Made by a program: the position numbers and the translations under genes. From a virus: 64,000 nt of DNA. The DNA lies in the IMG/VR virus record IMGVR_UViG_3300031857_000005, positions 62,001 to 126,000 of that record; one strand, 5' to 3'. The notes below the pieces were generated by a model. The model had not been told where the DNA came from. It did not search any database and saw only the letters and a list, made by a program, of their open reading frames with translations. The number at the start of each line of letters is the position of its first letter. Position 1 is the first letter of the stretch. Shown one piece after another: positions 551 through 58,141 of the stretch.

Positions 551-1357
551 ATGAAACATATTTTAAACGACATATCTTTGGAAGACAAGAAGAGAATCCT
601 TGAACAACATGACGGTGGAAAAAAATTGGTTATTGAAAACTTTAATAAATTGGTTAATAACAAATTGGGTACCGTAAAGGTTTTGGTTGAACAAGATGAC
701 GAGTTCTTAAAGACTGACTGGGTTCAGACAAGTTATGTAACCCCATTGTTAACCAATGGTTATTCTCAAGTTGCTGAAATAGATCTTCCTGATGGTACAT
801 ACAAAATGGGAGGTAGTGGATATCAAATTAATATTAACGATTCCACTGATAAAGAAACTGGATATTCATTAATTGTTCAGAGTGGAATTAGAGGTGAATG
901 GGAAGGTGATATAACAATTACATCAAAAAAACCAAGTAAAAATTATGCTGGTATATTCTTTAAAAATGTTGGATATACTGCACCTGAAAAAACTATTCAA
1001 ACAGGACAAACTCAAACTTTATCAAGTAAGGTATCAACTGAAGGACTTAAAAATGTTTCCGACTCAATGATACAATCCCCACCATTTAAAGGTTATTATA
1101 GTGGTTATGTAATTGGTGGGACTTTTAATGGTGTAAATTATGAATGGGATTTTAATGGTGTTGAGGGTATGTCAGGAGTTAGAGGTATGGTTGATGGACA
1201 GATTATTTGTGATAATAATACTGGTTTAAATAAACAAACAAAAAAGGAAATCACAGATGCTATTAACCCAGGATTTTGGCTTGGTTTTTATAGTTCACAA
1301 TCAAAATTTGTGTGTTATATGACAACAAATAATACCCCTAAAGTGGTGACATTTTAA
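551..1357 (+). CDS. Leader-bearing hypothetical protein (candidate virion cargo), 268 aa
   Basis: The first 20 residues (MKHILNDISLEDKKRILEQH) form a capsid-targeting-like leader with I-L-E at 16-18, the [LI]-x-E pattern cut by T4-type prohead proteases. The rest is Gly/Ser/Thr-rich and probably beta-stranded, with no family I recognise. ATATTTAT lies at 529-536, 15 bases before the ATG. The next gene starts 22 bases downstream and also carries a leader, so the two are probably co-transcribed. Product function unknown; packaging is inferred from the leader. Confidence 0.8.
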   Translation: MKHILNDISLEDKKRILEQHDGGKKLVIENFNKLVNNKLGTVKVLVEQDDEFLKTDWVQTSYVTPLLTNGYSQVAEIDLPDGTYKMGGSGYQININDSTDKETGYSLIVQSGIRGEWEGDITITSKKPSKNYAGIFFKNVGYTAPEKTIQTGQTQTLSSKVSTEGLKNVSDSMIQSPPFKGYYSGYVIGGTFNGVNYEWDFNGVEGMSGVRGMVDGQIICDNNTGLNKQTKKEITDAINPGFWLGFYSSQSKFVCYMTTNNTPKVVTF

Positions 1358-1379
1358 ATAAATAAATAAAAACAAAAAA

Positions 1380-1700
1380 ATGAAAAAAGTAATTAGATTA
1401 ACCGAATCAGATTTAGTCCGAATAGTTAGAAGAGTAATTAAAGAAGGGGTAACCGTAGTAAACCCTTGGTCGGATATTGAAAGTGTCGATAAAGGAGATA
1501 CTATGAAAGTAACTTCTAAAGATGGTGCCATTGATCATTTTAAGAATGGAAAAAGATGGACTGGATATATTGGATACAATATTATACAAAATCCAAGACA
1601 GGTACAACTTGATCAATCAGGTGCTATGAATGTTGTTTCATTTGACCCAACAAGAAAAACCGTAACATTCCAAAACGGAGTTGTAATTGGACCGGCATAA
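1380..1700 (+). CDS. Leader-bearing hypothetical protein with MKKVIRLTES leader, 106 aa
   Basis: The leader MKKVIRLTESDLVRIVRRVI continues K-E-G, giving a possible I-K-E cleavage site at residues 20-22. Nearly the same leader occurs on six other unrelated proteins here (7387, 10633, 47452, 48153, 48690, 49063). The ~84-residue body is a small domain with many beta-prone residues, unrelated to the other bodies. It has no promoter motif of its own and probably belongs with the gene at 551. A terminator follows at 1721. Confidence 0.8.
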   Translation: MKKVIRLTESDLVRIVRRVIKEGVTVVNPWSDIESVDKGDTMKVTSKDGAIDHFKNGKRWTGYIGYNIIQNPRQVQLDQSGAMNVVSFDPTRKTVTFQNGVVIGPA

Positions 1701-1720
1701 TAATACAAAAATAATTTTAA

Positions 1721-1748
1721 AACCCCACCTCATCCGTGGGGTTTTTTG
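1721..1748 (+). terminator. Rho-independent terminator
   Basis: CCCCAC/GTGGGG stem with a 7-base loop and six T. It ends the 551-1700 transcript; the next promoter motif begins 9 bases later. Confidence 0.85.
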
Positions 1749-1769
1749 TTTTCAATATATTTATCTAAT

Positions 1770-2606
1770 ATGAAAATACAAAACGATGCAATACTATGGT
1801 TTAGGAGACGAATAAATGATCCTGAAATAATGGATGTTCTTAAAGATATTGTTGAGGAGGGGTATGAATATGTTAATCCCTGTGATTATAAGAACAATTT
1901 TAAATCTTATTTAAATGACATTGTTTATGGTTCCGTTCAGACATTCATAAATTCATATGATGAATTGTATAAAACAAAAAGTGATATGAGGGTTCTTGAG
2001 AGTTATATTTATAAATTCATTGAATTTAAATTTGTGAATTCCATAAAAGAAAATTATGACTATTGGATTGAGGATTGTGATGAAACCCTTAATGAATCTC
2101 AGGTTCCACAACGAACAACATCCCTTGTATCAAGATTATATGAAGAAGGTAAAAGCATTAAAAAAATAAATGAGATAACGGGAATACCATTTGAGACAAT
2201 TATTTTATCAATTAAAGATTATTCTATGTTAATTGATTGTGGAATGGCGTATGAGTTGATTGATCTTCTTTTTAGATATACCAATTTATTAAAGACTAAG
2301 TCTGAGTCAAGTGAAGGACAAATTGAGATTAGTTATGAAAGATTTGGGGGTACGGTAGAATACGGATATAGAACCAAAGAATATGTTTTACATGGTTTTG
2401 CCACACCGTATTGGAATGGAGAGTGTGATTTACCAATTGATAATACGAACTATTATGACAGGAGGAGAGATAAGGATGAAGACGATGATTGGTTAACAAG
2501 TGTCAACATTCCCTTTGAATTTTATAACATATCGGAATTAATTGATTGGTTTAATGATGAATACCATCAATTACTTTTGGAGATAATGAAACAATGGGAG
2601 GTGTAA
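1770..2606 (+). CDS. Hypothetical protein, 278 aa, mostly helical, acidic
   Basis: The ATG at 1770 is chosen over an upstream in-frame start because it sits 6 bases after the promoter motif ATATTTAT (1757-1764), as at neighbouring genes. The start MKIQNDAILWFRRR is not a clear capsid-targeting leader. The middle (about 120-150) contains SRLYEEGKSIKKINEITG, which resembles a small helix-turn-helix ('YEEGKSIKKI..ITGIP'), so DNA binding is possible but unproven. The C-terminus is rich in Tyr, Trp and Asp. It ends 3 bases before the next gene. Confidence 0.75.
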   Translation: MKIQNDAILWFRRRINDPEIMDVLKDIVEEGYEYVNPCDYKNNFKSYLNDIVYGSVQTFINSYDELYKTKSDMRVLESYIYKFIEFKFVNSIKENYDYWIEDCDETLNESQVPQRTTSLVSRLYEEGKSIKKINEITGIPFETIILSIKDYSMLIDCGMAYELIDLLFRYTNLLKTKSESSEGQIEISYERFGGTVEYGYRTKEYVLHGFATPYWNGECDLPIDNTNYYDRRRDKDEDDDWLTSVNIPFEFYNISELIDWFNDEYHQLLLEIMKQWEV

Positions 2607-2609
2607 TGT

Positions 2610-2969
2610 ATGAAATTTATTATAACTGAATCAAGATATAGTGACCTTGTAACCAACTATTTGGACATTGGGGTTCATCCCGATTATAATTGGGGACCTG
2701 AACTTCACGATTTTTATCGTAAAGAAATTAAATCATACGGGATTTATGATTTTGTAATTAATGATAATGTTGCATATACCTATTACGGAGAATGGGATGG
2801 GTATGATTATATGTATCTGTTATTAATCCAACCTTGGTTGAGTAGGGAACTGACATCAATGTTCGGTCCAAAGTGGAAACCAATATTTAAGGAATGGTTT
2901 GAAAAAAATTCGGGACTTGAGGTTAGGGATATGAAAGTAGGTGAAAATTTGGGAAACTACATTGATTAA
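2610..2969 (+). CDS. Leader-bearing hypothetical protein (MKFIITES), 119 aa
   Basis: The leader MKFIITES is of the short type with I-T-E at residues 5-7, immediately comparable to the T4 internal-protein cut FIAE|A. The body is rich in Tyr and Trp with no recognised domain. It follows the 1770 gene by 3 bases, so the two are translationally close. If the leader is removed the mature product is about 112 residues. Confidence 0.75.
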   Translation: MKFIITESRYSDLVTNYLDIGVHPDYNWGPELHDFYRKEIKSYGIYDFVINDNVAYTYYGEWDGYDYMYLLLIQPWLSRELTSMFGPKWKPIFKEWFEKNSGLEVRDMKVGENLGNYID

Positions 2970-2991: not shown

Positions 2992-3474
2992 ATGGGAAAA
3001 TTTATTATAACAGAAGAAGAAAAAAACTCCATTAGAAAAATGTATCTGATGGAAGAAGATGAAACCGCTCAAGCAGATGAGGAGGTAAAAAATATTGATA
3101 TTAAACAATATTGTTCGGATAGAGGAGCACCATCATGGGTTACCAAAATACTAAATTCTTTACCTGAAGATAAAAAACAGGAAGCAATAAAAATTATCAA
3201 AAACTTTGCAAATGCTATCAGTGGTAAAAGTCTAAAAGAATTAATTACTCTTAGAAAAGAAGTTAATGATGAAAAACGAAAAGCCGAATTGTTAAATAAG
3301 GGTAGTATGAATGAACAACTTGCCCCTTTGGTTATTGCAGGTATTTCTATTCCCGCAACTTTATTAATAATCATCGGTATAGTTTTGGTTGCAATTATAA
3401 TAGTTTTTATTGTTAAAAAAACTAAGAAAAGTCAATATGGATGTGGGGGTCCTGGTTGGTGGAATGATTTGTAA
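2992..3474 (+). CDS. Leader-bearing membrane protein, 160 aa
   Basis: The ATG at 2992 is preferred over the longer frame from 2941 because it follows ATATTTAT (2971-2978) and opens with a leader (MGKFIITEEEKNSIRKMYLM, then E-E; possible L-M-E cut). The central part is helical and charged. A hydrophobic segment of about 28 residues near 116-143 (LVIAGISIPATLLIIIGIVL...) is a likely membrane span. A short basic, Gly-rich tail (GCGGPGWW) follows. It could be a packaged protein that inserts in the host membrane after ejection; that is inference. Confidence 0.8.
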   Translation: MGKFIITEEEKNSIRKMYLMEEDETAQADEEVKNIDIKQYCSDRGAPSWVTKILNSLPEDKKQEAIKIIKNFANAISGKSLKELITLRKEVNDEKRKAELLNKGSMNEQLAPLVIAGISIPATLLIIIGIVLVAIIIVFIVKKTKKSQYGCGGPGWWNDL

Positions 3475-3883: not shown

Positions 3884-4189
3884 ATGAAATATATCATTAC
3901 CGAAACACAGGATAAAAAAATACAATCATTTGTAAGACGACTTAATATTGTTGATGATTTTATTTCTATGTTGGATCCTAAAGATATTTGTAAATATTGG
4001 AACAACACAGATAAAGATGCGTTATTTTTTGCTGATGATGTTCTTGTTGGTGCAGTATGGGTAGTTAACGAAACCCTTGGAATTAAAAATTCATATGACA
4101 ATAAAGAACTTTATAAATTTCTTGAGGATGCTGGTTATTACGATAAACTAATTAAAATATTTCATAACTCATTTGAATTATGCGAATAA
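3884..4189 (+). CDS. Leader-bearing hypothetical protein (MKYIITET), 101 aa
   Basis: First of a run of three small genes with MKYIITES-type leaders. The leader has I-T-E at residues 5-7. The body is helical with two Trp and no known domain. ATATTTAT lies at 3871-3878, 5 bases before the ATG. Its 3' end overlaps the next gene by 10 bases, which indicates coupled translation. Confidence 0.75.
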   Translation: MKYIITETQDKKIQSFVRRLNIVDDFISMLDPKDICKYWNNTDKDALFFADDVLVGAVWVVNETLGIKNSYDNKELYKFLEDAGYYDKLIKIFHNSFELCE

Positions 4190-4509
4190 TAATAACTGAA
4201 AATCAAAAATATGTTCTCCGAAGAGTCCAACAATTTATTGATATTGTTGAGGAACAGATAGAGGGGTATGAATTAAATGAAGATGGTGCTTGGTGGTGTA
4301 GACATAATACCCCAAATACTTTTTTGGATCAGGTTAGAGATAGATCGATTGAAGAGTTTGTTAATAATAACTGGGATTTCTTTCATGATGATTCTGAAAA
4401 GGGTGGTGCAAATATGGATATCAGTATGTTAAATAACATTGTTGAACGGGAATATGGAAACTATATTAAGAACTTGTTTGTTCGTAAATGTAATAAATCA
4501 CGATTTTAA
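4180..4509 (+). CDS. Leader-bearing hypothetical protein (MRIIITEN), 109 aa
   Basis: The leader MRIIITENQ carries I-T-E. The body contains an acidic, Trp-rich stretch (GAWWCRHNTPNTF) and the segment SIEEFVNNNWDFFHD, which resembles VTEFVMQDFPNFFD in the gene at 6103; the bodies may be distant paralogues. It overlaps the upstream gene by 10 bases and ends 2 bases before the next ATG. Confidence 0.7.
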   Translation: MRIIITENQKYVLRRVQQFIDIVEEQIEGYELNEDGAWWCRHNTPNTFLDQVRDRSIEEFVNNNWDFFHDDSEKGGANMDISMLNNIVEREYGNYIKNLFVRKCNKSRF

Positions 4510-4511
4510 TT

Positions 4512-4862
4512 ATGAAATACATTATCACAGAATCTCAATTTAAAACTAGAATTTACGATAAGTTCCTTAATATGTTGGTGAAAGAAACCGAAATATTTGG
4601 CGGTAAAAAACATAAGTATATGTCATATGAATATGTTGCGTTCATAAAATATCCCCATTCTGAAAGAATACCTTCTGATTTGGCATTTAATGACCCTGAA
4701 GAATATACATTCACAACACCAGGAGGATTGATGGAAGAATGGTTACAATTAATTGGGGTTGATATAAAAAATTCACCTTATTTAGGTAAACAACTTTGGG
4801 ATGAGTATTTGGATAGATTACGCATTAAAGTGATAGACTACATCCAAAATTATATTAACTAA
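4512..4862 (+). CDS. Leader-bearing hypothetical protein (MKYIITES), 116 aa
   Basis: The leader is MKYIITESQ (possible cut after I-T-E). The body has a long helical C-terminus (EYLDRLRIKVIDYIQNYIN) and no recognised domain. It is third in the 3884-4862 series. Directly after its stop codon lies a broken copy of the same leader (4863-4886). Confidence 0.75.
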   Translation: MKYIITESQFKTRIYDKFLNMLVKETEIFGGKKHKYMSYEYVAFIKYPHSERIPSDLAFNDPEEYTFTTPGGLMEEWLQLIGVDIKNSPYLGKQLWDEYLDRLRIKVIDYIQNYIN

Positions 4863-5744: not shown

Positions 5745-6092
5745 ATGAAAATAATAATTTCCGAATCTCAAAAAAGTCGGATGTATTCTATAATACAAAA
5801 TCTGATTGACTCCGAGTTGAACAAAATTCGTGAGGAGTCAGAAAATTGGGGTTTGGGTGAGATGGATGAACTTGATGAAATCCAATCAATAGAAAGGATT
5901 GAGGTTGACAATATATCTACAGTGGATGGGGTTAAAGTTTATATTAATATCTATAAAAATTCACAAAGAAATGATTTTCAAAACACCCGTGGAGAATTAC
6001 AATATTATATTCAAGACATCATACCAAATATAAAAATATTTATAAACGATATAATTGATGAAAGGACATTTGGACCTGGAATTGATTGGTAA
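5745..6092 (+). CDS. Leader-bearing hypothetical protein (MKIIISES), 115 aa
   Basis: The ATG at 5745 is chosen because ATATTTAT lies at 5731-5738 and it opens the leader MKIIISESQ (I-S-E). The upstream TTG at 5739 would overlap the promoter region. The body is acidic and helical then beta-prone (VDGVKVYINIYKN). No known domain. Confidence 0.75.
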   Translation: MKIIISESQKSRMYSIIQNLIDSELNKIREESENWGLGEMDELDEIQSIERIEVDNISTVDGVKVYINIYKNSQRNDFQNTRGELQYYIQDIIPNIKIFINDIIDERTFGPGIDW

Positions 6093-6102: not shown

Positions 6103-6780
6103 ATGAAATATATTATCACAGAATCACAACATAATTTTATTAAAAGAAGGTATTCCTTTATAAGACAACTAATGGATAGGGAACTTGTTGATCAAGAACC
6201 TTGTTATTACAAATATCATGGGACAGGATTCAATAGTTATAAGCAAGCTGTTTTAGAAGGTGTTACAGAATTTGTTATGCAAGACTTCCCTAATTTTTTT
6301 GATATGGATGAGGGTGAATCTGATGAAAAGTGGTATATGATACACGATAGTTTAGAGGGTTTATTTAGTGAAGAAATTGAGTACCATTATGACAATGCCG
6401 ATTGTAGTGAATATGAAGAGGGTTATCTGAATGAGTCTAATGTTATTAGTGAATTGGATAGAAACTGGATGGATTCGGAGTATGAAGAACAATATGATAG
6501 AATTAAGAAAGGTATTATTAGAAGTATTAAAAAGATGATGACATCATATGGTGAAAATGAAAGAGTAATTAATGTATATGGTGAAAATGAAAAAATTTTG
6601 ATGTCATATCTTAAACAAAGTCGCGAATTATATTACGATAGATCAATCTCAGATATAATGGAAAACACATTACCCCACCCAATATGGTTCGTGAATGGTA
6701 AATATATTATGAGTGAAGTTTTTGAATCGTTTTTCCCTAATGAACAAGTTAAACGATGTTCCAGTGCAAATATAGTTTAA
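6103..6780 (+). CDS. Leader-bearing hypothetical protein (MKYIITES), 225 aa
   Basis: The leader is MKYIITESQ. The ATG at 6103 is preferred to an upstream TTG because it starts the leader exactly. The body is very acidic and helical, with internal similarity between RRYSFIRQLMD and the start regions of other MKYIITES proteins. It lies 10 bases after the preceding leader gene, so the two are likely co-transcribed. Function unknown. Confidence 0.75.
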   Translation: MKYIITESQHNFIKRRYSFIRQLMDRELVDQEPCYYKYHGTGFNSYKQAVLEGVTEFVMQDFPNFFDMDEGESDEKWYMIHDSLEGLFSEEIEYHYDNADCSEYEEGYLNESNVISELDRNWMDSEYEEQYDRIKKGIIRSIKKMMTSYGENERVINVYGENEKILMSYLKQSRELYYDRSISDIMENTLPHPIWFVNGKYIMSEVFESFFPNEQVKRCSSANIV

Positions 6781-6819: not shown

Positions 6820-7383
6820 ATGAAGAATTTATTTATTATAGAAGAAAGTGAAAGAAATAGAATTTTAGGTATGCATGAAAATGCAACTAAAAATCAATAT
6901 CTAACCGAAAATGAGGAGATGTCCGAACAAGTTGGTGCGGGTATCAAATCAAAGTTTGCTGGTTTAGGTGCAAGAGTTAAAACAACAGCTCAAAATTTGA
7001 AAACTGCGGTAACACCTACGACAACACAAGAAAGAATCACAGATAGTCCTAAATTGAATGCTGCTCTTGCAAGAATTAAATCAAGAGCTGGTTCTTTTGA
7101 AAAGATTGTTTCTGATTTGAATACTGATTTGAATGAGATAGTTACTCAGGCAACAAACTTTACAGGTGCAAATAACCCATTTAGATTTGAGGCACAACAA
7201 TTATTGGATTTAACTAATACTTATAGAACTTTATTATCTCAGGTTAGTACAACAAATACTCAAATGAAGTCGTTCCAATTCAAAAAACCTGAATTAACCG
7301 CACCAGCAGCGGCAACAACTACACCGGCAGCAACAACTACAACAACTACTACTGCACCGGCATCAACAACACAGACGGCTTAA
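6820..7383 (+). CDS. Leader-bearing protein with Thr/Ala-rich tail, 187 aa
   Basis: The leader MKNLFIIEESERNRILGMHE belongs to the 'ERxRIL' type also seen at 551 and 39601. A possible second cut is Y-L-T-E-N at about 27-31. A helical middle follows (KSKFAGLGARVKTTAQNLKT), then a low-complexity tail of Thr, Ala and Pro (about 160-187). ATATTTAT is at 6798-6805. The next gene starts 3 bases after the stop. No enzymatic domain seen. Confidence 0.75.
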   Translation: MKNLFIIEESERNRILGMHENATKNQYLTENEEMSEQVGAGIKSKFAGLGARVKTTAQNLKTAVTPTTTQERITDSPKLNAALARIKSRAGSFEKIVSDLNTDLNEIVTQATNFTGANNPFRFEAQQLLDLTNTYRTLLSQVSTTNTQMKSFQFKKPELTAPAAATTTPAATTTTTTTAPASTTQTA

Positions 7384-7386: not shown

Positions 7387-7821
7387 ATGAAAAAAGTAAT
7401 TAGACTAACGGAATCAGATTTAACAAGGATTGTTAAAAGAGTAATAAATGAACAACTTAGTTTGGGTGATTTAGGAAAATTACCTACAGTTGATATTAAC
7501 AAACCTAAAAATGTAAGTAAAAAAGGTTCAATTAAAGATATTGCAAATAAAAATTTTAAAAACAAAGAAGATTTTAATCATGTTTATAAAATGACTCAAG
7601 ATCCTAATACTACTTGGGTTATAGTATCTTCTACAGGAGATGTTAAGGTTGCTGGAGTCTCAAAAAATTTAAGTGGTAAACAACTAAAGTCATCGGATTT
7701 TATTGATTTAACTAATGGTGGTGAAATTACCCTTAAACCAAAAAATAAAGAAATAAATGCGGTTATGTACATCCAATTAGGTCGTAATGGGTCTATTGAA
7801 TCTGGGATGGTATGGGACTAA
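7387..7821 (+). CDS. Leader-bearing hypothetical protein (MKKVIRLTES), 144 aa
   Basis: The leader MKKVIRLTESDLTRIVKRVI ends N-E-Q, giving I-N-E as the likely cut. The body resembles a small mixed alpha/beta domain (DPNTTWVIVSSTGDVKVAG). It sits 3 bases after the 6820 gene and 22 bases before the ferritin-like gene, all on one strand, and so is probably one operon of packaged proteins. Confidence 0.8.
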   Translation: MKKVIRLTESDLTRIVKRVINEQLSLGDLGKLPTVDINKPKNVSKKGSIKDIANKNFKNKEDFNHVYKMTQDPNTTWVIVSSTGDVKVAGVSKNLSGKQLKSSDFIDLTNGGEITLKPKNKEINAVMYIQLGRNGSIESGMVWD

Positions 7822-7843: not shown

Positions 7844-8446
7844 ATGGACGATAGAATTTTAAAAAATGAAATAATGAAAGAAATTAAACGAAGAGGACTT
7901 CTTGAACAAGAGGAACAGGACGAAAGAGAAGATGATTCTGATGTTGAGGAAACGGAAGAAGGACTTTATAAATTACCGTCAAAAACAATCAAAATTTTAA
8001 CTGATAGAATTAAAGACGAATACACCGCACACTATTTTTATAGAGCGGCAACAAATTGGTGTAGAGATAAAAACTATAAGAAGGCGGCAGAATTTTTCAG
8101 TAATGAGGCTGATGACGAATTAACTCACGCGAAAAAAATTCAAGAGTATATGGTGGATTTTAACATCATACCTCAAATCCCTCAGGCACCAATTGATCAC
8201 AAATTTGACAATCTTATTGAGATAGTTCACGGAGCCTACAAAATGGAATTGGGATTGATGAAGTCATATAACGAAGATTCTCAAGAGTTGTTTTCCAATG
8301 ATATGTCAACCTTTGATTTTTTAACTGAGTTTAGAGAAATCCAAAGAGGTGCTGTTATTGAATACAATGATTTGATTAATGGTAGTCAATTAGTTGACAC
8401 TAAAGATAAATTCCAAGTACTATACTTTGAACAAACTTATTTTTAA
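7844..8446 (+). CDS. Ferritin-like protein with capsid-targeting-like leader, 200 aa
   Basis: Residues 45-180 fit the ferritin four-helix fold. Helix A has IKDEYTAHYFYRAA (E59, H63), helix B has FFSNEADDELTHAKK (E88, E92, H95; the ExxH iron motif), and helix D has FREIQRGAVIEYND. Ferritins oxidise Fe(II) and store it. The first 21 residues (MDDRILKNEIMKEIKRRGLL, then E-Q) are unlike normal ferritins and resemble the leaders of adjacent genes; an acidic linker (about 22-40) follows. I infer packaging in the capsid. Free cytoplasmic iron storage or redox protection are the alternatives. Confidence 0.8.
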   Translation: MDDRILKNEIMKEIKRRGLLEQEEQDEREDDSDVEETEEGLYKLPSKTIKILTDRIKDEYTAHYFYRAATNWCRDKNYKKAAEFFSNEADDELTHAKKIQEYMVDFNIIPQIPQAPIDHKFDNLIEIVHGAYKMELGLMKSYNEDSQELFSNDMSTFDFLTEFREIQRGAVIEYNDLINGSQLVDTKDKFQVLYFEQTYF

Positions 8447-9526: not shown

Positions 9527-10093
9527 ATGAGGGAAATTATTCGTAAAGTTTTATTGGAGACTGACTATTTGAAGAGGAAGGAGTTTGCAAAAAAAACTTT
9601 ATTTAAGTTATGGGATAGAGAAAAATCTATGGGTAAACAACCAGTAATTAATGATGTGATTACTCAAACTTTTGGTGTTATGGCGTATGACTTAAATGAG
9701 ATGTTAGTTGAGTGGTATGGAGGTGTTGATAAGGTATACGAAATAATAAAAAACAGATTATCAAATAAATCTATAACAACAGATAAAATTCAGGAATTGG
9801 GGGTTAATGTTGGAAATTATGATTTTACATTTGAATTTGAGAATATAAAAATTCGTAGAAGTCGTAGTGGAGGGTATGATTTGGAACTCCAAATGAATAT
9901 AATTGATGGTGGAGTTGAGTTAATGACTGACGGTGAATACATTGATTTAATGAACCCAAGTTCTGTAAATGATGATTTATGGTGGGAAATATCTTATGAA
10001 ATAAAAGATATTGCAGGAGATTTAATATATAAAATATCAAAAGAATATGGATTTGATAGTTTTTTAGGTGACATAATAATAGATTTTATATGA
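9527..10093 (+). CDS. Leader-bearing hypothetical protein, 188 aa
   Basis: The leader is MREIIRKVLLETDYLKR with L-L-E at 9-11. The N-terminal body (FAKKTLFKLWDREKSMGKQP) is helical, and a beta-rich part follows around 90-130. ATATTTAT is at 9514-9521, 5 bases before the ATG. The last codons overlap the next gene by 4 bases (ATGA), so the two are translationally coupled. No recognised domain. Confidence 0.75.
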   Translation: MREIIRKVLLETDYLKRKEFAKKTLFKLWDREKSMGKQPVINDVITQTFGVMAYDLNEMLVEWYGGVDKVYEIIKNRLSNKSITTDKIQELGVNVGNYDFTFEFENIKIRRSRSGGYDLELQMNIIDGGVELMTDGEYIDLMNPSSVNDDLWWEISYEIKDIAGDLIYKISKEYGFDSFLGDIIIDFI

Positions 10094-10572
10094 AATATTT
10101 AATTACAGAGTCTCAATATGAGATATTAATTGAGAATCAAAAATATGTTGATTCATTATTGGATAAAATTTCCGAAGAAGGGTACCAATCATTAAGTATT
10201 GATGAGAAAAGGTATTTGGATGAATTTTCTAAACACAAAGGAGAACCTGATGAGTTTGTTTACTCTTCAGATCAACACGACGAAAGAGAAGGTGAAGTGA
10301 TTGAAGGTGAGATTTCTGGATTACCCATTAAGTATACATTTTCTGAGGAGGCGGATAACAATGATGGTATTGGTTATTATGGTGGACTTGAATTTGATGG
10401 TGATGAATATTTTGGAGTTATAATCTCGGATGAACGAGGACATTTGGTGGGTTATGATTTTTATAGCGTTCTTTCAGATGATGATGTTAGATTACAAGAC
10501 AATATTGAAGGATTGGAACACGAAGTTTCTTTATTTTTTTCAGAAAATGTTCTTCCTGAACTACATAGGTGA
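10090..10572 (+). CDS. Leader-bearing hypothetical protein (MKYLITES), 160 aa
   Basis: The leader is MKYLITESQ (I-T-E). Residues 12-60 form a long acidic helix region; residues 70-130 look beta-rich (GEVIEGEISGLPIKYTFSEE). Overall strongly acidic. Coupled to the upstream leader gene by ATGA overlap. Function unknown. Confidence 0.75.
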   Translation: MKYLITESQYEILIENQKYVDSLLDKISEEGYQSLSIDEKRYLDEFSKHKGEPDEFVYSSDQHDEREGEVIEGEISGLPIKYTFSEEADNNDGIGYYGGLEFDGDEYFGVIISDERGHLVGYDFYSVLSDDDVRLQDNIEGLEHEVSLFFSENVLPELHR

Positions 10573-10632: not shown

Positions 10633-11022
10633 ATGAAAAAAGTAATTAGATTGACAGAAAGTGAATTAACTGAACTTATACATAGAATCATTGTTGAGAC
10701 GGAAATGGATATGGATCGTGATACGATGAAGGATGGCGAAATGGAAGAAGGTTTATTTGGACCAAGCAAAAAAGAAAAAGAAGAATCCAAAAAAGATTTA
10801 ATGAATAAAATGGAAGATTTACTTGGAAATAGTGAATATACTGAAGATGAATTGGCGAATAGTATGGAATCTATTTTGAATAAAGCTAAAGATTCTCATT
10901 ACAAAGGGAAAGTTAAGTTAACTAAAACATCAAAAGGAAAACCAATGTTTGCTTTTGAACCTGAACTTACTAAGATGCAAAAGTTGGCAGCAGGATCAAG
11001 AGGACAAGCTTACGGAAGATAA
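10633..11022 (+). CDS. Leader-bearing hypothetical protein (MKKVIRLTES), 129 aa
   Basis: The leader MKKVIRLTESELTELIHRII continues V-E-T, giving possible I-V-E or L-T-E sites. A second acidic/Met-rich stretch (ETEMDMDRDTMKDGEMEEG) precedes a basic helical body. ATATTTAT lies at 10594-10601. A bidirectional terminator follows at 11044, shared with the convergent membrane-protein gene. Confidence 0.8.
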   Translation: MKKVIRLTESELTELIHRIIVETEMDMDRDTMKDGEMEEGLFGPSKKEKEESKKDLMNKMEDLLGNSEYTEDELANSMESILNKAKDSHYKGKVKLTKTSKGKPMFAFEPELTKMQKLAAGSRGQAYGR

Positions 11023-11407: not shown

Positions 11408-12013
11408 ATGAAAATAATTTTAAGTGAAAGTCAGTATATTAAATTAATTACAGAAGTTGAGGATATTGAACCATCAAAATCCGCTGTAAGGAATATTTGT
11501 GATAGTGAGAAGTTTTGTAATGCTCAGGGGGAAATAACTTTTGGACAATTGCGAGCATTGGTTGAGTCTACAACAAAAAAAAGATTATATCAGCATGTTG
11601 GTGAGGGTGGATTTAAGGCGACGATAAGAATGTTACCTTGGTTTTTACCCCAACTTATTATTGCAGGAGTAGTTGGATCCGCAGCAAGAGCAATTAACAA
11701 AATAGTTAGACCAACATTAGAGGAAACTGATAATTATAAAACTTGGTGGGGTAGAGCGGTTATGAAGTCGTTTGATATTGTTGAGGGAGAATTAGGGTTA
11801 AGAGATCCTTTATCAAAAATATTTTTTATATCCGATGGTCTTATGACAATGATGGATGATAAATATAAAGTTAAATTCGCCAAATATATTGCGGAATTGG
11901 CTAGTGAACAACCTGACGATGAGGTGGTTCCTGAATACTTTGTTGAAAACGAATTAAGAAGGTGGGTTAATGATAAATTTCTTTTGGATCCACCACTACC
12001 ACCAAAAATATGA
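11408..12013 (+). CDS. Leader-bearing protein with hydrophobic segment, 201 aa
   Basis: The leader MKIILSESQYIKLITE offers two cut sites (L-S-E at 5-7 and I-T-E at 14-16). A hydrophobic, Gly/Ala-rich segment near 75-95 (MLPWFLPQLIIAGVVGSAAR) may span or bind a membrane. The C-terminus is helical and acidic, ending LLDPPLPPKI. ATATTTAT is at 11394-11401. The stop overlaps the next ATG (ATGA). Confidence 0.75.
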   Translation: MKIILSESQYIKLITEVEDIEPSKSAVRNICDSEKFCNAQGEITFGQLRALVESTTKKRLYQHVGEGGFKATIRMLPWFLPQLIIAGVVGSAARAINKIVRPTLEETDNYKTWWGRAVMKSFDIVEGELGLRDPLSKIFFISDGLMTMMDDKYKVKFAKYIAELASEQPDDEVVPEYFVENELRRWVNDKFLLDPPLPPKI

Positions 12014-20989: not shown

Positions 20990-21517
20990 TTATTGTCCTT
21001 TAACTAAATTAACACATTGTTTTAAGTACTCTTTAGTTCTTGGGGATGGAGTATACTCGTCCTCTTTAACCTGTAGATTCAATATCTTTTCAATATCTTT
21101 AACTAATTCAGTACCGTGCTCGTTTTCTTTATATAATTCAATGACTTTATCCATTGCTTTATGACAATCCCCACTAGTTTCATCATAATAGTTCTTATTT
21201 CTGAATCTGTTGAGATTATTCATCATTTCGTAAGCCAAGTGTTCTCCACCATCTTTAATGTCCTTAAACAATCTAATATTGTTTAATATACCCAATGTAT
21301 CAACAAATCCATTAACACCTCTATTTCTTTTTGTAACTCCTGGTGAGTATTTTGCAAATTCCTCAGAATCCCCAACGATTTCATCCAACTGAATTATATT
21401 CTCAGGAATACATCTTGGTTTAACTTTTTTCTTTTCTGCGGAACTCATGCTATCATCTTCTTTGATGATTTTATATAGTGCTTTTCTAATATCACTTTCT
21501 TTAACTAATCTTCTCAT
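20990..21517 (-). CDS. Leader-bearing hypothetical protein, 175 aa (minus strand)
   Basis: From ATG 21517 the product opens MRRLVKESDIRKALYKIIKE, a leader ending I-K-E. The longer frame would start inside the promoter motif ATAAATAT at 21534-21541. The body is helical and acidic, with two Cys (KPRCIPENIIQ; GDCHKAMDK). No family recognised. It is one of the few leader genes on the minus strand and faces the leader gene at 21582, so the two share a divergent promoter region. Confidence 0.75.
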   Translation of the reverse strand: MRRLVKESDIRKALYKIIKEDDSMSSAEKKKVKPRCIPENIIQLDEIVGDSEEFAKYSPGVTKRNRGVNGFVDTLGILNNIRLFKDIKDGGEHLAYEMMNNLNRFRNKNYYDETSGDCHKAMDKVIELYKENEHGTELVKDIEKILNLQVKEDEYTPSPRTKEYLKQCVNLVKGQ

Positions 21518-39641: not shown

Positions 39642-40595
39642 TCAAGCAATTGACTCAGCACCAACAGATTTTGGTGAATAACATTTATCGTCTAATGGGA
39701 TATTTTCAACCTTGACATAATAATTTTCAGTCTCATCTGAAATATTAAAGACATAGGCATCATTGGCAATCTCTTGATATTTTGAATTATTTGTTAACCA
39801 TTCAGGTATGTTTATACATCCTGATGACATCATTAGTTCTTTATTTTTAGTTTCATCGTCCAAATCAGAAATTGTTCTATCTGAGGATTTAATCAATGCG
39901 TTTTTTCTTTCGGCAACATCCAATACCTTGTGAATTGCTTGAGATAACCTTTTACCATCCAAAGTTTTTAAATATGTGGTTATGTCGTTTAATTTATTGG
40001 TTGTGTAAATACCAGGGTTTAAAGACGCGCCACCACTAAATTCAAAAACTTCATTATCTGAAACATCGCTAATATTTTTATTTTTTGTTTTTGCAATATA
40101 AGATCTTCGTTCCTCAAAATTTAAAAGATTAAATTCCTTCCAATTTTCTTCAGTTGATTGTTTTTCTCTACCTGTTATTATTGGTATTGGGGATTTTTTC
40201 TCAGGATTTTGGTAAGGTGTTACATCGTTTAATGTTTTATCAAATAAATAAATTGTATGTTGTCTTGAATCCACAATTATTATATTTTTATCTTTAAATC
40301 CTGGTCTTATATTTATAAGTCCCATTTGACAAGAAGGTCGTTCTGCAATTCCCTTTGAAATTAGGTTTGAGGCAAAGGACTGAATGTCATTGTTTATACC
40401 TGAAAAAACAACATTCAAATTTTCCGTTTTTAATTTTGTTTTATATGATGATATAATCTCGTCATAATCTACAACATTAGTTTTTGTTGATTCATTAAAT
40501 TTAGTACAGAATTGATTAGTCTGTTCAGTTATAATACCATATAATTTTTTTATGTGGTTTTTTTCGTTTTCCGTTATTATGAATTTTTTACTCAT
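39642..40595 (-). CDS. Leader-bearing L,D-transpeptidase-like (YkuD-type) protein, 317 aa
   Basis: The leader MSKKFIITENEKNHIKKLYG ends IITEQ (I-T-E at 22-24). The body shows YkuD features: KNIIIVDSRQHTIYLFD, PIITGRE, ASLNPGIYTT, AIHK (H222) and SSGCINIP (C260), matching the [ST]-x-G-C-[IVR]-N catalytic motif. YkuD enzymes cross-link or exchange peptides in peptidoglycan. Leader plus YkuD suggests a packaged cell-wall enzyme. ATAAATAT at 40652-40659. Confidence 0.8.
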   Translation of the reverse strand: MSKKFIITENEKNHIKKLYGIITEQTNQFCTKFNESTKTNVVDYDEIISSYKTKLKTENLNVVFSGINNDIQSFASNLISKGIAERPSCQMGLINIRPGFKDKNIIIVDSRQHTIYLFDKTLNDVTPYQNPEKKSPIPIITGREKQSTEENWKEFNLLNFEERRSYIAKTKNKNISDVSDNEVFEFSGGASLNPGIYTTNKLNDITTYLKTLDGKRLSQAIHKVLDVAERKNALIKSSDRTISDLDDETKNKELMMSSGCINIPEWLTNNSKYQEIANDAYVFNISDETENYYVKVENIPLDDKCYSPKSVGAESIA

Positions 40596-45607: not shown

Positions 45608-47440
45608 ATGGGTAAAATTTTAATTACGGAAGATGAAAAAAAACGCATCCTAAATCTTTATGGAATACTTAAGGAGGCTAATCCGGTACCTGCAAAATCA
45701 ACAGAAACACTTAAATTAGATAAAACTATTAATTTTGCTCCAGGATATTATAATCCAAAATTCTCATATACATCACCAAATGGAACAACATATAATTGGG
45801 ATGTTGACACAACTTTAAAAGATGGTTTAAATAATATTAAGGAATTTTTGAAAAAAAATCCTACGGGTTATGTTGTTAGTGTTAAATTAGAAAGTGGTGA
45901 ATCTCAAATACCAAACACGGATAATCAAGAAGGTGGAAAAAGAGTTGATCCAAATTATTTAAATGATGCAAGATTAAATACACTAAAAAAATACATAACC
46001 CCAATTTTTGATTCTTGGAAATCTGAAGGGATTAACACAAATTTTACGATAACTGAAGATAAAAAAATTGGAACGACTCCTTGGATTGGTAGTGTATTTT
46101 GTCCCGCAAATTCAACTAAAGAACAATCAAGGTCAGTTTGTACAACTAACTATATGAAAATACTTGGTGATACAAAAGATCCTTTACATTCTCAAGTTAA
46201 CGAATTAAAGAAAAAGTATAATAGTGAACAATACTTTAGGGTTGTAATTGAGGTAAATAAAAGTACAGTCAAAAAAACTGTTGATTCTAAATGTGCAACA
46301 GGATTAAAAATTAGAGTTTGGGTTGAGTCACATAATTGTCAAAATGCGGAATTCTTTATGTTTGCCAACAGCACATTATTATATAATAGTGTTGGTGGGA
46401 TGACGGCTAATTTAAATAACTCAAATTCAAGTAGAGGTATCCCAAAAGCAGATTCTTCACCAATATTTGGACCAAAATGGTTAAATCCTGGATATGGTTA
46501 TTTAAAAAATGGTGATGGAACTTATTCTTACGGTTATGGTAAATTAAAACCTGCAGGTGATGTTGGTGGTAGTCGTTCTGATTCATTTGAAATAACTTCA
46601 GAACAATCGGCAAGTATTGTTGCTAATGGAAACGGTTATATTGATATATGGATGATTGCGAGTACAACTGCGGCACATAAAGACATCCCAAATGTCACAA
46701 TTACTAAACCAGGTGTTAACGAACCTATATTTGACGGTAAACCAAATATTATTCAAGGTAAACTGTTAAGATTAGACGCTTGTGGGGACACTAAGTTAGA
46801 GTTGGGTACCGACTCAACAGTTCCTAATGCCATGAGTTATGTTGGGGTATTAAAACAAGAAAAAATATCAACAATGAGATCGGCTGGTGAAAAACCTGAA
46901 GAAGAAATTGATCCAAATACAGGGAAAAGAAAAAAATTAAAATTGGATCAAAAAGCCGTATTGTTAGATAGGTTAGATATTCTAAATCAAGATATGTTTA
47001 ACTTGATATTATATTTAGGAACTCAATTGACACCATTATTTAACCCAAGGGCAGAAGCCTCTAAAAAATTACAATCACCACTTCCTGATGATGTATATCA
47101 AAATATATTAACAAGATTACAGACGGATTACCCTAAGATTGTTAACGAAATTAACAATCAAGGAACTACTGAAGAACCTGTATTAAGTTTAAGAAGAAAT
47201 GAAGATGGTGAATATGAAAATAAAACAATAAACAAAGATGATTTATATGGTGATGTAAGAGATTACCTAAATAAATTTTATAGAATGTTTGATAAAGTTT
47301 ACCTCAATAGAACATCTAAACAATATTCTCCTGAAGGATCAATTGATAATTTGAAAACAAATTGGGGTAAATTATATACAAAATTAGAAACTACTCCTGA
47401 TTGGCCGTTTAAAGGTATTGCAGGAACTAAATTAGCGTAA
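45608..47440 (+). CDS. Leader-bearing large protein, 610 aa
   Basis: Leader MGKILITEDEKKRILNLYGI ends L-K-E (with I-T-E early). A first domain (about 40-200) resembles OmpA-like periplasmic folds in places (VVSVKLESGESQIPNTDN; YLNDARLNTLKKYITPIFDS). A beta-rich middle (CATGLKIRVWVESHNCQNAE) and a helical C-terminus (about 430-610) follow. Three overlapping ATATTTAT copies (45590-45609) precede the ATG, the strongest such site here. Candidate abundant virion protein. Confidence 0.75.
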   Translation: MGKILITEDEKKRILNLYGILKEANPVPAKSTETLKLDKTINFAPGYYNPKFSYTSPNGTTYNWDVDTTLKDGLNNIKEFLKKNPTGYVVSVKLESGESQIPNTDNQEGGKRVDPNYLNDARLNTLKKYITPIFDSWKSEGINTNFTITEDKKIGTTPWIGSVFCPANSTKEQSRSVCTTNYMKILGDTKDPLHSQVNELKKKYNSEQYFRVVIEVNKSTVKKTVDSKCATGLKIRVWVESHNCQNAEFFMFANSTLLYNSVGGMTANLNNSNSSRGIPKADSSPIFGPKWLNPGYGYLKNGDGTYSYGYGKLKPAGDVGGSRSDSFEITSEQSASIVANGNGYIDIWMIASTTAAHKDIPNVTITKPGVNEPIFDGKPNIIQGKLLRLDACGDTKLELGTDSTVPNAMSYVGVLKQEKISTMRSAGEKPEEEIDPNTGKRKKLKLDQKAVLLDRLDILNQDMFNLILYLGTQLTPLFNPRAEASKKLQSPLPDDVYQNILTRLQTDYPKIVNEINNQGTTEEPVLSLRRNEDGEYENKTINKDDLYGDVRDYLNKFYRMFDKVYLNRTSKQYSPEGSIDNLKTNWGKLYTKLETTPDWPFKGIAGTKLA

Positions 47441-47451: not shown

Positions 47452-47826
47452 ATGAAAAAAGTAATAAGACTAACCGAATCAGAATTAGTTAACTTGATTA
47501 GAAACATAATCACCGAAGGTGAAATTGCCGAATTGGGTACAATTAGTGATTTTGGTGAGATTAAGGACATTGAAGGGATTGAATCGGAATCGGGATTAAA
47601 GGCAGGTGTTGCAACAATGTTTCCTGATGAAGAAAATGAAAAAGATGTAATTGTTGTTTATCTTCTTGATAATAACGGTAATCCAGAAATTTATGGATAT
47701 GGTCCATCAATCACATCAAATATGGATGAAAGAATGGTTAGAAGAATGGCAAAAAAATTGTTAAATCAATGGGATGAGGAATATGGATCAAATGATTCGT
47801 ACATATCAGATGAATCTTTATTTTAA
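47452..47826 (+). CDS. Leader-bearing hypothetical protein (MKKVIRLTES), 124 aa
   Basis: Leader MKKVIRLTESELVNLIRNII then T-E-G (I-T-E). The body is acidic, with DVIVVYLLDNNGNPEIYGYG and MDERMVRRMAKKLLNQW. ATATTTAT (47440-47447) is 4 bases before the ATG. It heads a run of five consecutive leader genes that end at 49383. Confidence 0.8.
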   Translation: MKKVIRLTESELVNLIRNIITEGEIAELGTISDFGEIKDIEGIESESGLKAGVATMFPDEENEKDVIVVYLLDNNGNPEIYGYGPSITSNMDERMVRRMAKKLLNQWDEEYGSNDSYISDESLF

Positions 47827-47836: not shown

Positions 47837-48136
47837 ATGAAAAATATAAAACTATCTGAGAAAGAATTAATAAATATGATTGAAAGAATCATTAAGGAAG
47901 AAGAAGACGAGTTCTCAATTGAACCTCATGTTAATAAAATTCCTCGTGAAAGACAATTACAAAATATGTTTGGTAAATATGATGAACAAATACCAAATGA
48001 TATATTAAGATATATGAGAAAAAATCCTCAGTTAATTATGAATAGATTGGCAAAAATCTATGGTGATAACTTTTTGAAATATGCGGATAATGCATATGTA
48101 AACGCTAAAAAATTCGATGATCTTGGATCATTATAA
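47837..48136 (+). CDS. Leader-bearing hypothetical protein, 99 aa
   Basis: Leader MKNIKLSEKELINMIERIIK, then E-E (I-K-E; L-S-E early). The body is helical and basic-acidic mixed (RERQLQNMFGKYDEQIPNDI). It follows the 47452 gene by 10 bases. No family recognised. Confidence 0.75.
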   Translation: MKNIKLSEKELINMIERIIKEEEDEFSIEPHVNKIPRERQLQNMFGKYDEQIPNDILRYMRKNPQLIMNRLAKIYGDNFLKYADNAYVNAKKFDDLGSL

Positions 48137-48152: not shown

Positions 48153-48677
48153 ATGAAAAAAGTAATTAGACTAACAGAATCAGACTTAACAAGGATTGTT
48201 AGACGAGTGATTAATGAAAATGATGAGAGCATGATTCGTATCCCAAGAAAATATGATGGGGTTAGAATGGAACTTGGTAATTCTGTATCTCCTGAAGATA
48301 TTATTGAAATGTATAATGGGCTTGTTGAAGAGGGAACTCCTCTTGTTGATTATTCTGAGTATGGGACAGAAGGGATGTTTTATAATGAAGAAGGTGAGGA
48401 AATTCCTGTTGACGCGATTCTTGATGAACTTAACTACGCAATAGTTGGTAAAGAAAGTGGTGAGGATTATGATCCTCCCGTTGGAAAGGAAGGTAGAGTT
48501 AGTGATAATGAATACGTATTAATGGATACGGGACTCGACAAATACAATTTTATCTTTAACCCAACACGGAATAGATACGAATTTAAAACTTGGATAAAAA
48601 ATGGATCACAGGGTACGGCAGTACTAACTGATGACCGATTGAAATCATTACTTGATTTTTTAACCAAACATAAATAA
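48153..48677 (+). CDS. Leader-bearing hypothetical protein (MKKVIRLTES), 174 aa
   Basis: Leader MKKVIRLTESDLTRIVRRVI then N-E-N (I-N-E). The acidic body (YNGLVEEGTPLVDYSEYG) ends in a basic segment (FNPTRNRYEFKTWIKNGSQG). Third in the 47452-49383 run; spaced 16 bases from its neighbour. Confidence 0.8.
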   Translation: MKKVIRLTESDLTRIVRRVINENDESMIRIPRKYDGVRMELGNSVSPEDIIEMYNGLVEEGTPLVDYSEYGTEGMFYNEEGEEIPVDAILDELNYAIVGKESGEDYDPPVGKEGRVSDNEYVLMDTGLDKYNFIFNPTRNRYEFKTWIKNGSQGTAVLTDDRLKSLLDFLTKHK

Positions 48678-48689: not shown

Positions 48690-49040
48690 ATGAAAAAAAT
48701 AATTAGACTAACAGAATCAGATTTACAAAGAATTGTAAAACGAACAATTAAAGAAAATAGAGAACACAAAAGAGAATTGGAACTTAGAAAAAAGTTAGAT
48801 GATGTTTTCTTTGGTTATGATGAATCTAATATTACAAGTGAACCAGGTGAAAGAGGATATCTATCTCAAGAATATAGATTATCTAAAAAGATTAGTCCAA
48901 GACAGAGAATTGAAAGGATTAATCAGGTGATTGAGGAATTGGAGAACTATATTAGTGATTTGAAGTATAGTATTGGATCTGAAGAAGAATACATAAAAAA
49001 CCCAACATACGATGAGGTTTGGGGTGATATTGAAAAATAA
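48690..49040 (+). CDS. Leader-bearing hypothetical protein (MKKIIRLTES), 116 aa
   Basis: Leader MKKIIRLTESDLQRIVKRTI then K-E-N (I-K-E). The remaining residues are charged and helical, with a coiled-coil-like end (RIERINQVIEELENYISDLK). Lies 12 bases after the 48153 gene. Confidence 0.8.
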   Translation: MKKIIRLTESDLQRIVKRTIKENREHKRELELRKKLDDVFFGYDESNITSEPGERGYLSQEYRLSKKISPRQRIERINQVIEELENYISDLKYSIGSEEEYIKNPTYDEVWGDIEK

Positions 49041-49062: not shown

Positions 49063-49383
49063 ATGAAAAGAGTAACTAAATTAACTGAAGGGGATTTAAC
49101 AAGGATTGTTAGACGAGTTATTAAAGAAGATAACGAAGAAGATAAAATGGATGGTATGAGAATATCCATTACATTGGATGATGTGTTTAAGGAGGTTAGG
49201 GAATCTCTTTACGATCTTGGTGATTATGATGATGCAACTATGGGAAAAAAGGCTATGACTTTGGCCAAAGATATTATGGGTGACTTTCAAGATGACTTGT
49301 CCACGGTATTAGCAGACTATATTTCATTGAATTATGAGGATTACCTTTATGAGGTTCTTGGTGATGAAGGTGAAGATTTTTAA
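49063..49383 (+). CDS. Leader-bearing hypothetical protein (MKRVTKLTEG), 106 aa
   Basis: Leader MKRVTKLTEGDLTRIVRRVI then K-E-D (I-K-E). Acidic helical body (DDVFKEVRESLYDLGDYDDA; MALAKDIMGDFQDD-like). Last of the five consecutive leader genes. A TTGACA/ATATTTAT-bearing region follows. Confidence 0.8.
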   Translation: MKRVTKLTEGDLTRIVRRVIKEDNEEDKMDGMRISITLDDVFKEVRESLYDLGDYDDATMGKKAMTLAKDIMGDFQDDLSTVLADYISLNYEDYLYEVLGDEGEDF

Positions 49384-53598: not shown

Positions 53599-54303
53599 AT
53601 GAAAGGGAGAGTTAAAATCACTGAAGGTGAGATTAAGTATATTTTACAAAAACACAAATTATCAATTAACGAATCTGTTAAATTAACTGATTTTGTTACT
53701 AGTGATATGTCATCTGAAAGTCCAAACTTTAAAAGTTTTGTTGAGTTTTTAAATGGTAATGTTGACTTGGATACAATTGCAGATAATGTGGAAACTTTCT
53801 TTAAGTCATTATCAAAAACTGTTACGGATACTGACACAGATAATGTTAAAATCGTTGGTGGGAATAGAACTGATGACGAATTTTATAAAGAAGTATTGGA
53901 TCGTATTGGTGCTGAACCAACAAAAGAAAACATGAAATTTTTCTATGCATGGAGACAAGCGGAAGGTGCTCAAGCAACATATAACCCATTTAACACAACA
54001 CATAAAAAAGAGGGATCTAGTTTATGGAATTGTTTAAAGAAGAAATCAGGGAAATGTGTTTCAGGTGTTAGAAATTATGATTCTGAGGAAGATGGTATAA
54101 GTGCAACCGCATCAACAATTAAAAATGGATATTATCCGTGTATATTAGACGGATTAAAAAATGATATTGGGGCAAAAAATATTGCTGACAAATGTTTATC
54201 AAACTTAAAAACTTGGGGAACTGGTGGTTTAGTAAAAACCGTATTAAACAGTAAAACATTAAATCCTCCTGTAATCTCAAGAAGTTTGGTTAAAAAAGTT
54301 TAA
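53599..54303 (+). CDS. Leader-bearing lysozyme-like protein, 234 aa
   Basis: Leader MKGRVKITEGEIKYILQKHK leads to LSINES (I-N-E, plus I-T-E). The C-terminal 130 residues (FFYAWRQAEGAQATYNPFNT; VRNYDSEEDGISATASTIKN; GYYPCILDGL) match a lysozyme/transglycosylase-like domain I recall from phage cell-wall hydrolases; E in AEGA is the probable catalytic Glu. ATATTTAT at 53577-53584. Leader plus hydrolase suggests packaged cell-wall digestion at entry. Confidence 0.75.
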   Translation: MKGRVKITEGEIKYILQKHKLSINESVKLTDFVTSDMSSESPNFKSFVEFLNGNVDLDTIADNVETFFKSLSKTVTDTDTDNVKIVGGNRTDDEFYKEVLDRIGAEPTKENMKFFYAWRQAEGAQATYNPFNTTHKKEGSSLWNCLKKKSGKCVSGVRNYDSEEDGISATASTIKNGYYPCILDGLKNDIGAKNIADKCLSNLKTWGTGGLVKTVLNSKTLNPPVISRSLVKKV

Positions 54304-56824: not shown

Positions 56825-56843
56825 AAAAAAGTTCACAAAGTAC

Positions 56844-56874
56844 TTGACAAAACAAAACAAATGTCGTAACTTTG
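56844..56874 (+). promoter_or_regulatory. Host-type promoter for the ~0.9 kb structured RNA
   Basis: TTG-N20-TAACTTTG, followed by TTCGGA-AAAG-TCCGAA hairpin and boxA-like GTTCTTTGAA at 56903-56912. Confidence 0.65.
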
Positions 56875-57048
56875 TAAAACAAATTCGGAAAAGTCCGAAA
56901 TCGTTCTTTGAAAATTGAATTATCCGTTCAGGAGTAAGTAATGAAACTGATAAAGATATTGGGCCGTGTATAGTCCATGAAATAAACTACGAAAGTAGGA
57001 TAAAGTGAACCCTTAAGTGTGTTGGGTTTGCGGTTTGGGTAACCGAAC

Positions 57049-57456
57049 TTGAGTACACAAGCGGGATACCGTATAACCTTTAGTACCGAGGGCAACGCTG
57101 TAGGGAAAGTGGTTAAACGATTTGGCGATGTGGGTCGTCTGATTGAGGTGGGAACACCAATAGGAATAACTCGTAGGGATATTGCAAAAAATATGGTTAT
57201 CCAATTATATTATTGCGTGTTCCATTATGATAGGATACTTAAAACCGAAAGGTATGATAACAAACAGGTGGTGCTGACATTATCCTTGATAAACTTCTAC
57301 CAAGGGGTTAATCTCGAAGTAATCTTGAAATATCGGAATGGGGACATTTCAAGGAGTAGTTTGGTATTTCGTTGTTCAAAAGACGACGAATCTGAAAGAC
57401 GGACCACTACTTCTATAATCCACGACACAGAACTTTATTTTTACATTGAAGAGTAA
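57049..57456 (+). CDS. Doubtful ORF inside the structured RNA region, 135 aa
   Basis: Frame from TTG 57049 to TAA; first ATG at 57190. The product includes VVLTLSLINFYQGVNLEVIL, which reads like protein, but third positions are much more G/C-rich than in neighbouring genes. The frame overlaps sequences that form stems. Could be a protein gene inserted in a structured RNA, or a chance frame. Confidence 0.3.
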   Translation: MSTQAGYRITFSTEGNAVGKVVKRFGDVGRLIEVGTPIGITRRDIAKNMVIQLYYCVFHYDRILKTERYDNKQVVLTLSLINFYQGVNLEVILKYRNGDISRSSLVFRCSKDDESERRTTTSIIHDTELYFYIEE

Positions 57457-57805
57457 AATCATAAATTAGACTTAAAGCAAAAGTGTCCGTCAGGTAATAG
57501 TGAAAGGTGACTACATAGTAATGAGCCGTTCATTGCATCGTCTAAACCGCAAGTTTAACGATATTCTTACCAAAAACCTCTAATCCCGCAAGGACTAGTT
57601 GGGGAGGCATCCTCGAAGAGAGTTGAGTAATGAGAGAGTAACTAATACCTCAAGGAGTGGTACACCTAAAAGACCGTCACTGAGAAATACTTTTCAAAAG
57701 AAAGTGGATAAGAGTAGAAACAATAATGACTCTAAAGGTTCTCAACAAAAACTGTAATCTCAGGTTTTTATTTTAGATTTAAAATCTTATAAGAAAAAAA
57801 TTAAT

Positions 57806-57834
57806 AGGGACGATGTGAATCGATCCCTTTTTTT
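57806..57834 (+). terminator. Rho-independent terminator
   Basis: AGGGA-C-GAT/ATC-GA-TCCCT stem with T7; ends the structured RNA transcript. Confidence 0.75.
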
Positions 57835-57871
57835 GTTTTATATATATTTATAAATAAAAGAATATAATATT

Positions 57872-58141
57872 ATGGGAAGATTAATAAAATTATCAGAAAT
57901 GGACATAACAAGAATTGTTAGACGTGTAATCAAAGAAGACAAAGGACTTGGCGATAGAAAAGGTGAACTATATTCTTCCATTAATAATGTTCTTATGGAT
58001 TTTGAGGATGTTGATCCATCTGACATTGTAATGATTTTAAAAAATATATTAGATGTTCATAAAGCTATGGAATACAGGAGTAAAAATAAAATAGAACCTG
58101 TTTCCTCCCATGATGTAAGAAAACGTTTTAAAAATTACTAA
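57872..58141 (+). CDS. Leader-bearing hypothetical protein, 89 aa
   Basis: Leader MGRLIKLSEMDITRIVRRVI then K-E-D (I-K-E; L-S-E early), the 'TRIVRRVIKE' type. A short charged helical body (DLDPSDIVMILKN-like). ATATTTAT at 57844-57851. Terminator right after the stop (58149-58170). Confidence 0.75.
   Translation: MGRLIKLSEMDITRIVRRVIKEDKGLGDRKGELYSSINNVLMDFEDVDPSDIVMILKNILDVHKAMEYRSKNKIEPVSSHDVRKRFKNY

Follow-up and report, generated by a model that had tools for sequence, protein, structure and literature searches.

The window analysed here is a 64,000-nucleotide stretch (positions 62001-126000) of the 304,365-base virus record IMGVR_UViG_3300031857_000005, a T4-like jumbo phage of 304 kb in which a simple coding-potential caller finds 391 genes. 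Coordinates refer to the window unless marked 'genome'. Along the window lies a series of genes whose products begin with short leader peptides that end in, or contain, the motif [ILV]xE (Table 1). A sequence-only reading had listed 36 such genes, and every one of its coordinates proves to be a real open reading frame (ORF) start bearing the leader described. Its claim that almost all of these leaders contain [IL]xE holds in the form that 35 of the 36 carry [ILV]xE within the first ~30 residues, a motif present in 37% of random 31-residue internal stretches; the leader of 26974 is doubtful. The true start of the minus-strand gene at 20990 is the ATG at 21517.

Position-specific scoring matrices (PSSMs) for the leaders were trained solely on two other genomes sharing the capsid gene (G1, 296 kb; G2, 273 kb), because circularity was to be avoided, and the cut-off was the score that 99.9% of 6,052 internal windows do not exceed. 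With these held-out profiles, 63 of the 391 N-termini score above the cut-off against ~1.2 expected by chance, which rules out a chance origin of the leaders. Four of the 63 scores are marginal and unlikely to mark genuine leaders; removing them and adding matches to regular expressions (regexes) gives a strict genome-wide total of 65 of 391 genes, and looser variants raise it to ~80. The earlier set of about 36 is confirmed but understated, since the genome holds at least 65, many beyond the window. The single related leader type that had been described gives way to about four interchangeable classes, and some ORFs are tandem leader-cargo polyproteins. Class A reads MKKVIRLTESDLTRIVRRVIKE/ (a slash marks the predicted cleavage bond), class B MKIIITESQY.., class C MKELIRHILKE/ and MNLQENIRRILRE/, and class D ..RIxxMMGxxLIxE/. 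Across classes the leaders are 7-30 residues long, and different classes have only [ILV]xE in common. The rest of each protein had been called unrelated, which is nearly right: the mature parts form 71 families among 79 proteins, a few paralogs included, and cargo turns over rapidly between phages.

Several comparisons indicate that the leaders are peptides under selection. A set of 138 distinct type-A leaders was gathered on residues 1-13 only, so that residues 20-22 were unselected, and 134 of the 138 have [ILV]xE at exactly these positions. Column entropy, as low as 0.12 bit at E22, climbs at residue 23 to 2.95 bits and lies at ~4 bits, the background value, from residue 26. Many third codon positions vary at fixed residues (L7, T8, L12), on which ground conservation at the DNA level only was rejected. 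Between close relatives, leader identity exceeds mature identity in 15 of 15 pairs, with means of 85% and 55%.

Outside the window, the genome carries a head cluster in T4 order: terminase (genome 130421), portal (genome 132442), protease (genome 135771), scaffold and major capsid protein (MCP; genome 138300). The sequence-only reading, which took the leaders for cleavable packaging signals, had called for a prohead protease in the complete genome; a Peptidase_S77 prohead protease gene (genome 135771-136499, E=3e-23) is present in this portal-protease-scaffold-MCP cluster, and an acidic scaffold-like protein (genome 136865-138265) is encoded between protease and MCP. The MCP propeptide ends at LINE/A; all 81 sequences have E60 and A61, and the site occupies the alignment column of the T4 gp23 site FLTE/A. 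In T4, gp21 cleaves after L/I-X-E, and the propeptides of the internal proteins (IPs) are capsid-targeting sequences (CTS; PMC9026906); an Asp at position 10 of the T4 CTS prevents its processing while leaving targeting intact (PMC9026906). The specificity predicted for the S77 protease, as read from the MCP, coincides with the motif at the end of the leaders. S77 is present in 12 of 13 MCP-related records and in 12 of 16 large leader-bearing contigs.

Orthologous proteins place the motif at the same boundary under different leaders. In the family of genome gene 141671, which adjoins the capsid gene, [ILV]xE directly precedes a conserved A[TS].. start in 27 of 27 distinct sequences while the residues upstream differ; the predicted sequence right after the Glu of 141671 itself is ATSDSSGSRGSFVVPLRPGLK. 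The family of genome gene 128996 has [ILV]xE before AP[IV][DG]Y in 10 of 10 distinct sequences. That of genome gene 143912 has the motif within the leader in 29 of 30; its orthologs bear type A or type C, and the first Glu, E16, is the sole invariant leader column (the AlphaFold2 model of this family is poor, with a predicted template modelling score (pTM) of 0.39). Within the genome, genes 48611 (type A) and 72090 (type B; window 10090) carry different leaders on paralogous cargo, and different leaders on the same cargo are also seen for 55889 and G1_112227 and for 86652 compared with its G1 and G2 orthologs. That the classes replace one another on the same cargo is the strongest reason to think that they have one function in common.

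Leader-cargo units are also concatenated within single ORFs: two in genome gene 53511, three in G1_97421, four in genome gene 141671 (one internal type-A leader included) and about six in G2_243199 (1018 residues), where the separators are mostly [LI]NE/S or N. Where a stand-alone cargo aligns inside a larger protein, 110 of 123 internal junctions have [ILV]xE within a 14-residue span, 43 of them exactly at the expected bond, whereas the control at random positions gives 20%. The count is dominated by one family and hence weaker than it looks, but other families agree with it. Leader swaps, junction motifs and the sharp edge at the Glu are what a cleavable targeting propeptide predicts, and they support this interpretation.

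Table 1. Leader genes of the window, with leader class and leader sequence up to the predicted cleavage bond (slash).
Position	Strand	Class	Leader	Remark
551..1357	+	variant	MKHILNDISLEDKKRILE/	outside strict regex/PSSM set
1380..1700	+	A	MKKVIRLTE SDLVRIVRRVIKE/	
2610..2969	+	B	MKFIITE/	
2992..3474	+	B	MGKFIITE..YLME/	TATTTAT upstream
3884..4189	+	B	MKYIITE/	
4180..4509	+	B	MRIIITE/	
4512..4862	+	B	MKYIITE..LVKE/	
5745..6092	+	B	MKIIISE/	
6103..6780	+	B	MKYIITE/	
6820..7383	+	B-like	MKNLFIIE..QYLTE/	
7387..7821	+	A	..RVINE/	
7844..8446	+		..KRRGLLE/	ferritin/rubrerythrin-like cargo
9527..10093	+	C	MREIIRKVLLE/	
10090..10572	+	B	MKYLITE..LIE/	cargo homologous to genome gene 48611
10633..11022	+	A	..RIIVE/	
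11408..12013	+	B	MKIILSE..LITE/	
20990..21517	-	A-like	MRRLVKE..KIIKE/	
21582..22214	+	C	MNNIKQIVRRVISE/	orthologs in G1 and G2
24652..25251	+	C	MNIKETIRKIINE/	putative zinc metallopeptidase cargo
25631..26251	-	B	MKVVISE..LLTE/	
26974..27672	+	doubtful		no [ILV]xE within first 46 residues
28611..28862	+	variant	..GEIGE/	
28859..30136	+	variant	MNNTDEILKRILLNMKYDSRKTLSE/	
30138..32402	+	C/D	MEKNLKQILSE..KIINE/	
32419..33900	+	D	MRKIITEINRIREMIGVSLIVE/	
33950..35446	+	D	..INRIREMIGVSLIVE/	paralog of 32419
38822..39601	-	B	MNKRILISEEEKQRILGMH..PILE/	
39642..40595	-	B	MSKKFIITE..GIITE/	
45608..47440	+	B	MGKILITEDEKKRILNLYGILKE/A	610-residue cargo
47452..47826	+	A	..NIITE/	
47837..48136	+	A-like	MKNIKLSEKELINMIERIIKE/	
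48153..48677	+	A	..RVINE/	
48690..49040	+	A	..RTIKE/	
49063..49383	+	A	MKRVTKLTE..RVIKE/	
53599..54303	+	B-like	MKGRVKITEGEIKYILQKHKLSINE/	
57872..58141	+	A	MGRLIKLSEMDITRIVRRVIKE/	

We consider it highly probable that the leaders are capsid-targeting propeptides, from which an S77 cut after [ILV]xE would free the cargo in the head for delivery with the DNA. The short amphipathic N-terminal tag would bind core or scaffold during prohead core assembly and bring the cargo inside; the gp21-type S77 protease would then cut after [ILV]-x-E, releasing the cargo within the head and maturing the MCP at LINE/A in the same step. The several tag classes would do one job and be exchanged among cargoes, multi-unit ORFs would be cut at internal [ILV]xE sites so that one packaged polyprotein yields several proteins, and the cargo would reach the host together with the DNA, to act as infection begins. 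At least 65 tagged proteins are very probably packaged and trimmed in the virus particle. The tags, the protease gene, the conserved MCP site, the swaps and the junctions can be read directly from the sequences; binding, cleavage, packaging and ejection we infer from the likeness to T4.

Pfam and PHROGs searches with 74 leader proteins gave few matches. The cargo of 7844 matches Pfam Ferritin (2.8e-18), and most of its 53 viral homologs have varied N-termini ending in [IL]xE, while some are without a leader. A leader protein of G2 bears a phage lysozyme domain. In the 24652 family the HExxH (with H114 and E115) is invariant, as is a Glu further on, E146; a confident AlphaFold2 model (predicted local distance difference test score 86.9, pTM 0.83) places HExxH on one helix and E146 on the next, and the cargo is a putative zinc metallopeptidase. 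A fold search with this model returned no PDB match at E<=0.001, and its viral matches are mostly unnamed, with SprT- and IrrE-like proteins ranked low. Orthologs of 24652 have other leaders, ending in [IL]xE, and the family is also found inside 915- and 1426-residue proteins of the viral contigs L319 and L320. PDB sequence searches with large cargo proteins yielded nothing useful; a match of 45608 to gp120 was taken as chance.

When the type-A leader is written as a degenerate DNA pattern, it is matched at least 119 times in IMG/VR viral contigs and in none of 84,980 genomes of bacteria and archaea. Megablast and tblastn with the leader peptides gave no match in named phages, from which absence does not follow, as 22-residue queries may lie below tblastn detection; a literature search, which covered few subscription papers, met no published account of such leaders. 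In each of the three genomes, leader genes are enriched for TATTTAT in the 40 nt that precede them (p=1.6e-7, 2.3e-10 and 2.5e-4); the motif is also found upstream of the protease, the scaffold, the terminase and gene 210682. At most it qualifies as a candidate late promoter. It mostly begins 11-13 or 20-23 nt before the ATG (for example at 2992 and 45608), and the nearer class, if a -10 element, would mean very short 5' untranslated regions.

The leaders could also be DNA conserved at gene starts for translation initiation, as promoter-proximal sequence or for recombination, without a role for the peptide; this would agree with the frequency of TATTTAT upstream of these genes and with the resemblance of the leaders to modules moved by recombination. 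We regard it as scarcely credible: it is largely refuted by the codon test, in which residues stay fixed as third positions vary, leader copies exist inside ORFs, and the different classes have nothing beyond [ILV]xE in common. The leaders might instead address a membrane, a replication compartment or a host complex, with [IL]xE as a binding motif and no cut site. The targeting is something that we infer and the motif is short, which leaves room for such a role; it is nevertheless quite improbable, as the same motif is invariant at the end of the MCP propeptide and is kept at polyprotein junctions despite differing upstream sequence, and leader conservation stops at the Glu.

It is unlikely that the proteins are processed in the prohead but are mainly core or scaffold parts, later degraded or kept, of which few if any act in the host. 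Some leader proteins do lie within the head gene cluster (128996, 141671 and 143912), and the T4 core proteins gp22, gp67 and gp68 are fragmented at the same motif (PMC9026906). However, so many mature families with such rapid turnover are unlike scaffold, as is the enzyme-like cargo (ferritin, lysozyme and HExxH peptidase).

The reading as packaged and trimmed cargo finds its closest parallel in T4 IPI-III and Alt, where a short N-terminal leader with an [LI]xE cut motif likewise stands on unrelated proteins, with an S77 prohead protease, the same MCP site and some of the proteins beside head genes. It departs from T4 in scale, with at least 65 genes (known from sequence alone) against T4's handful, in its four leader classes, swapped on one ortholog, and in its tandem or polyprotein cargo with internal sites. 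In the jumbo phages phiKZ and SPN3US, too, a head protease trims many packaged proteins; SPN3US heads contain ~50 proteins (PMC7411985). Most propeptides of SPN3US exceed 100 residues, and AVE-79 is an example of their sites (PMC5694885), whereas the leaders here have 7-30 residues and end in [ILV]xE, and long propeptides with non-[IL]xE sites of the phiKZ/SPN3US type (for SPN3US, as described) were not encountered. Flavobacterium phage immuto, one of the closest cultured phages as judged by the MCP (~41% identity), has a T4-like head cluster with an S77 protease and a [VI]xE/A MCP site.

Besides the skew of the junction count toward one family, several observations weigh against packaged cargo. 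The leaders cannot be aligned to the T4 leader MKTYQEFIAE, which they resemble only in length and terminal motif, and no protein encoded in a 40-kb stretch of T4 that includes the IP genes is matched by the leader regexes. In immuto they match 3 of 211 proteins (most of the genome), as weak type C with no A or B. Type B leaders show no sharp conservation edge at the first ITE. TATTTAT is not found upstream of the MCP or the portal and is weakly enriched across the structural block, so that it argues only weakly for late expression. S77 was not found in four leader contigs and one MCP contig; at least two of these absences are explained by contig truncation, as the MCP of L075 is preceded by just ~1.3 kb of sequence, and G015 and G018 are collinear at a constant offset of 26,637, so that the G018 protease would map past the end of G015.

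Other features accompany the leader genes. A PKD/SprB protein (13066-15393, +) has a CHU_C type IX secretion signal domain, because of which the host is probably a member of the Bacteroidota. A PAS/GAF sensor histidine-kinase-like protein (15500-17638, +) precedes a response regulator domain protein (17656-18093, +), a two-component-like pair in a phage. A full-length GOLLD giant ornate RNA (57352-57766, +; Rfam RF02032, 312 bits) has the tRNA region on one side and leader gene 57872 on the other; the window carries ~24 tRNAs and a tmRNA (58178-58580, -; Rfam E=5e-46) with an odd ARAGORN tag peptide, EKEQTLIIRG. A ClpA/ClpC/ClpB-like double AAA+ ATPase is encoded at 60555-62612 (-). Two glutamine synthetase paralogs (genome 650-1855, +, and 301746-302945, +) lie toward the two ends of the record, where the flanking gene sets are alike.

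The leaders appear to work as the T4 CTS does, the testable features being found here except for similarity of leader sequence; new relative to T4 would be a broad, swappable and partly polyprotein loading of cargo. On balance the evidence leans toward a T4-like jumbo clade, probably of Bacteroidota phages and common in metagenomes, in which swappable tags and concatenation load dozens of fast-changing, protease-released effectors per genome. If this is true, a CTS like that of T4 has grown into a modular means of delivery with polyprotein cargo, new packaging tags become available, and the tag is a sequence label for the virion-delivered effectors of uncultured phages. Injected phage proteins are hard to recognise without virion proteomics; the short [IL]xE tag would list them from sequence in many uncultured phages, and candidates for early take-over and counter-defence could be catalogued in this way.

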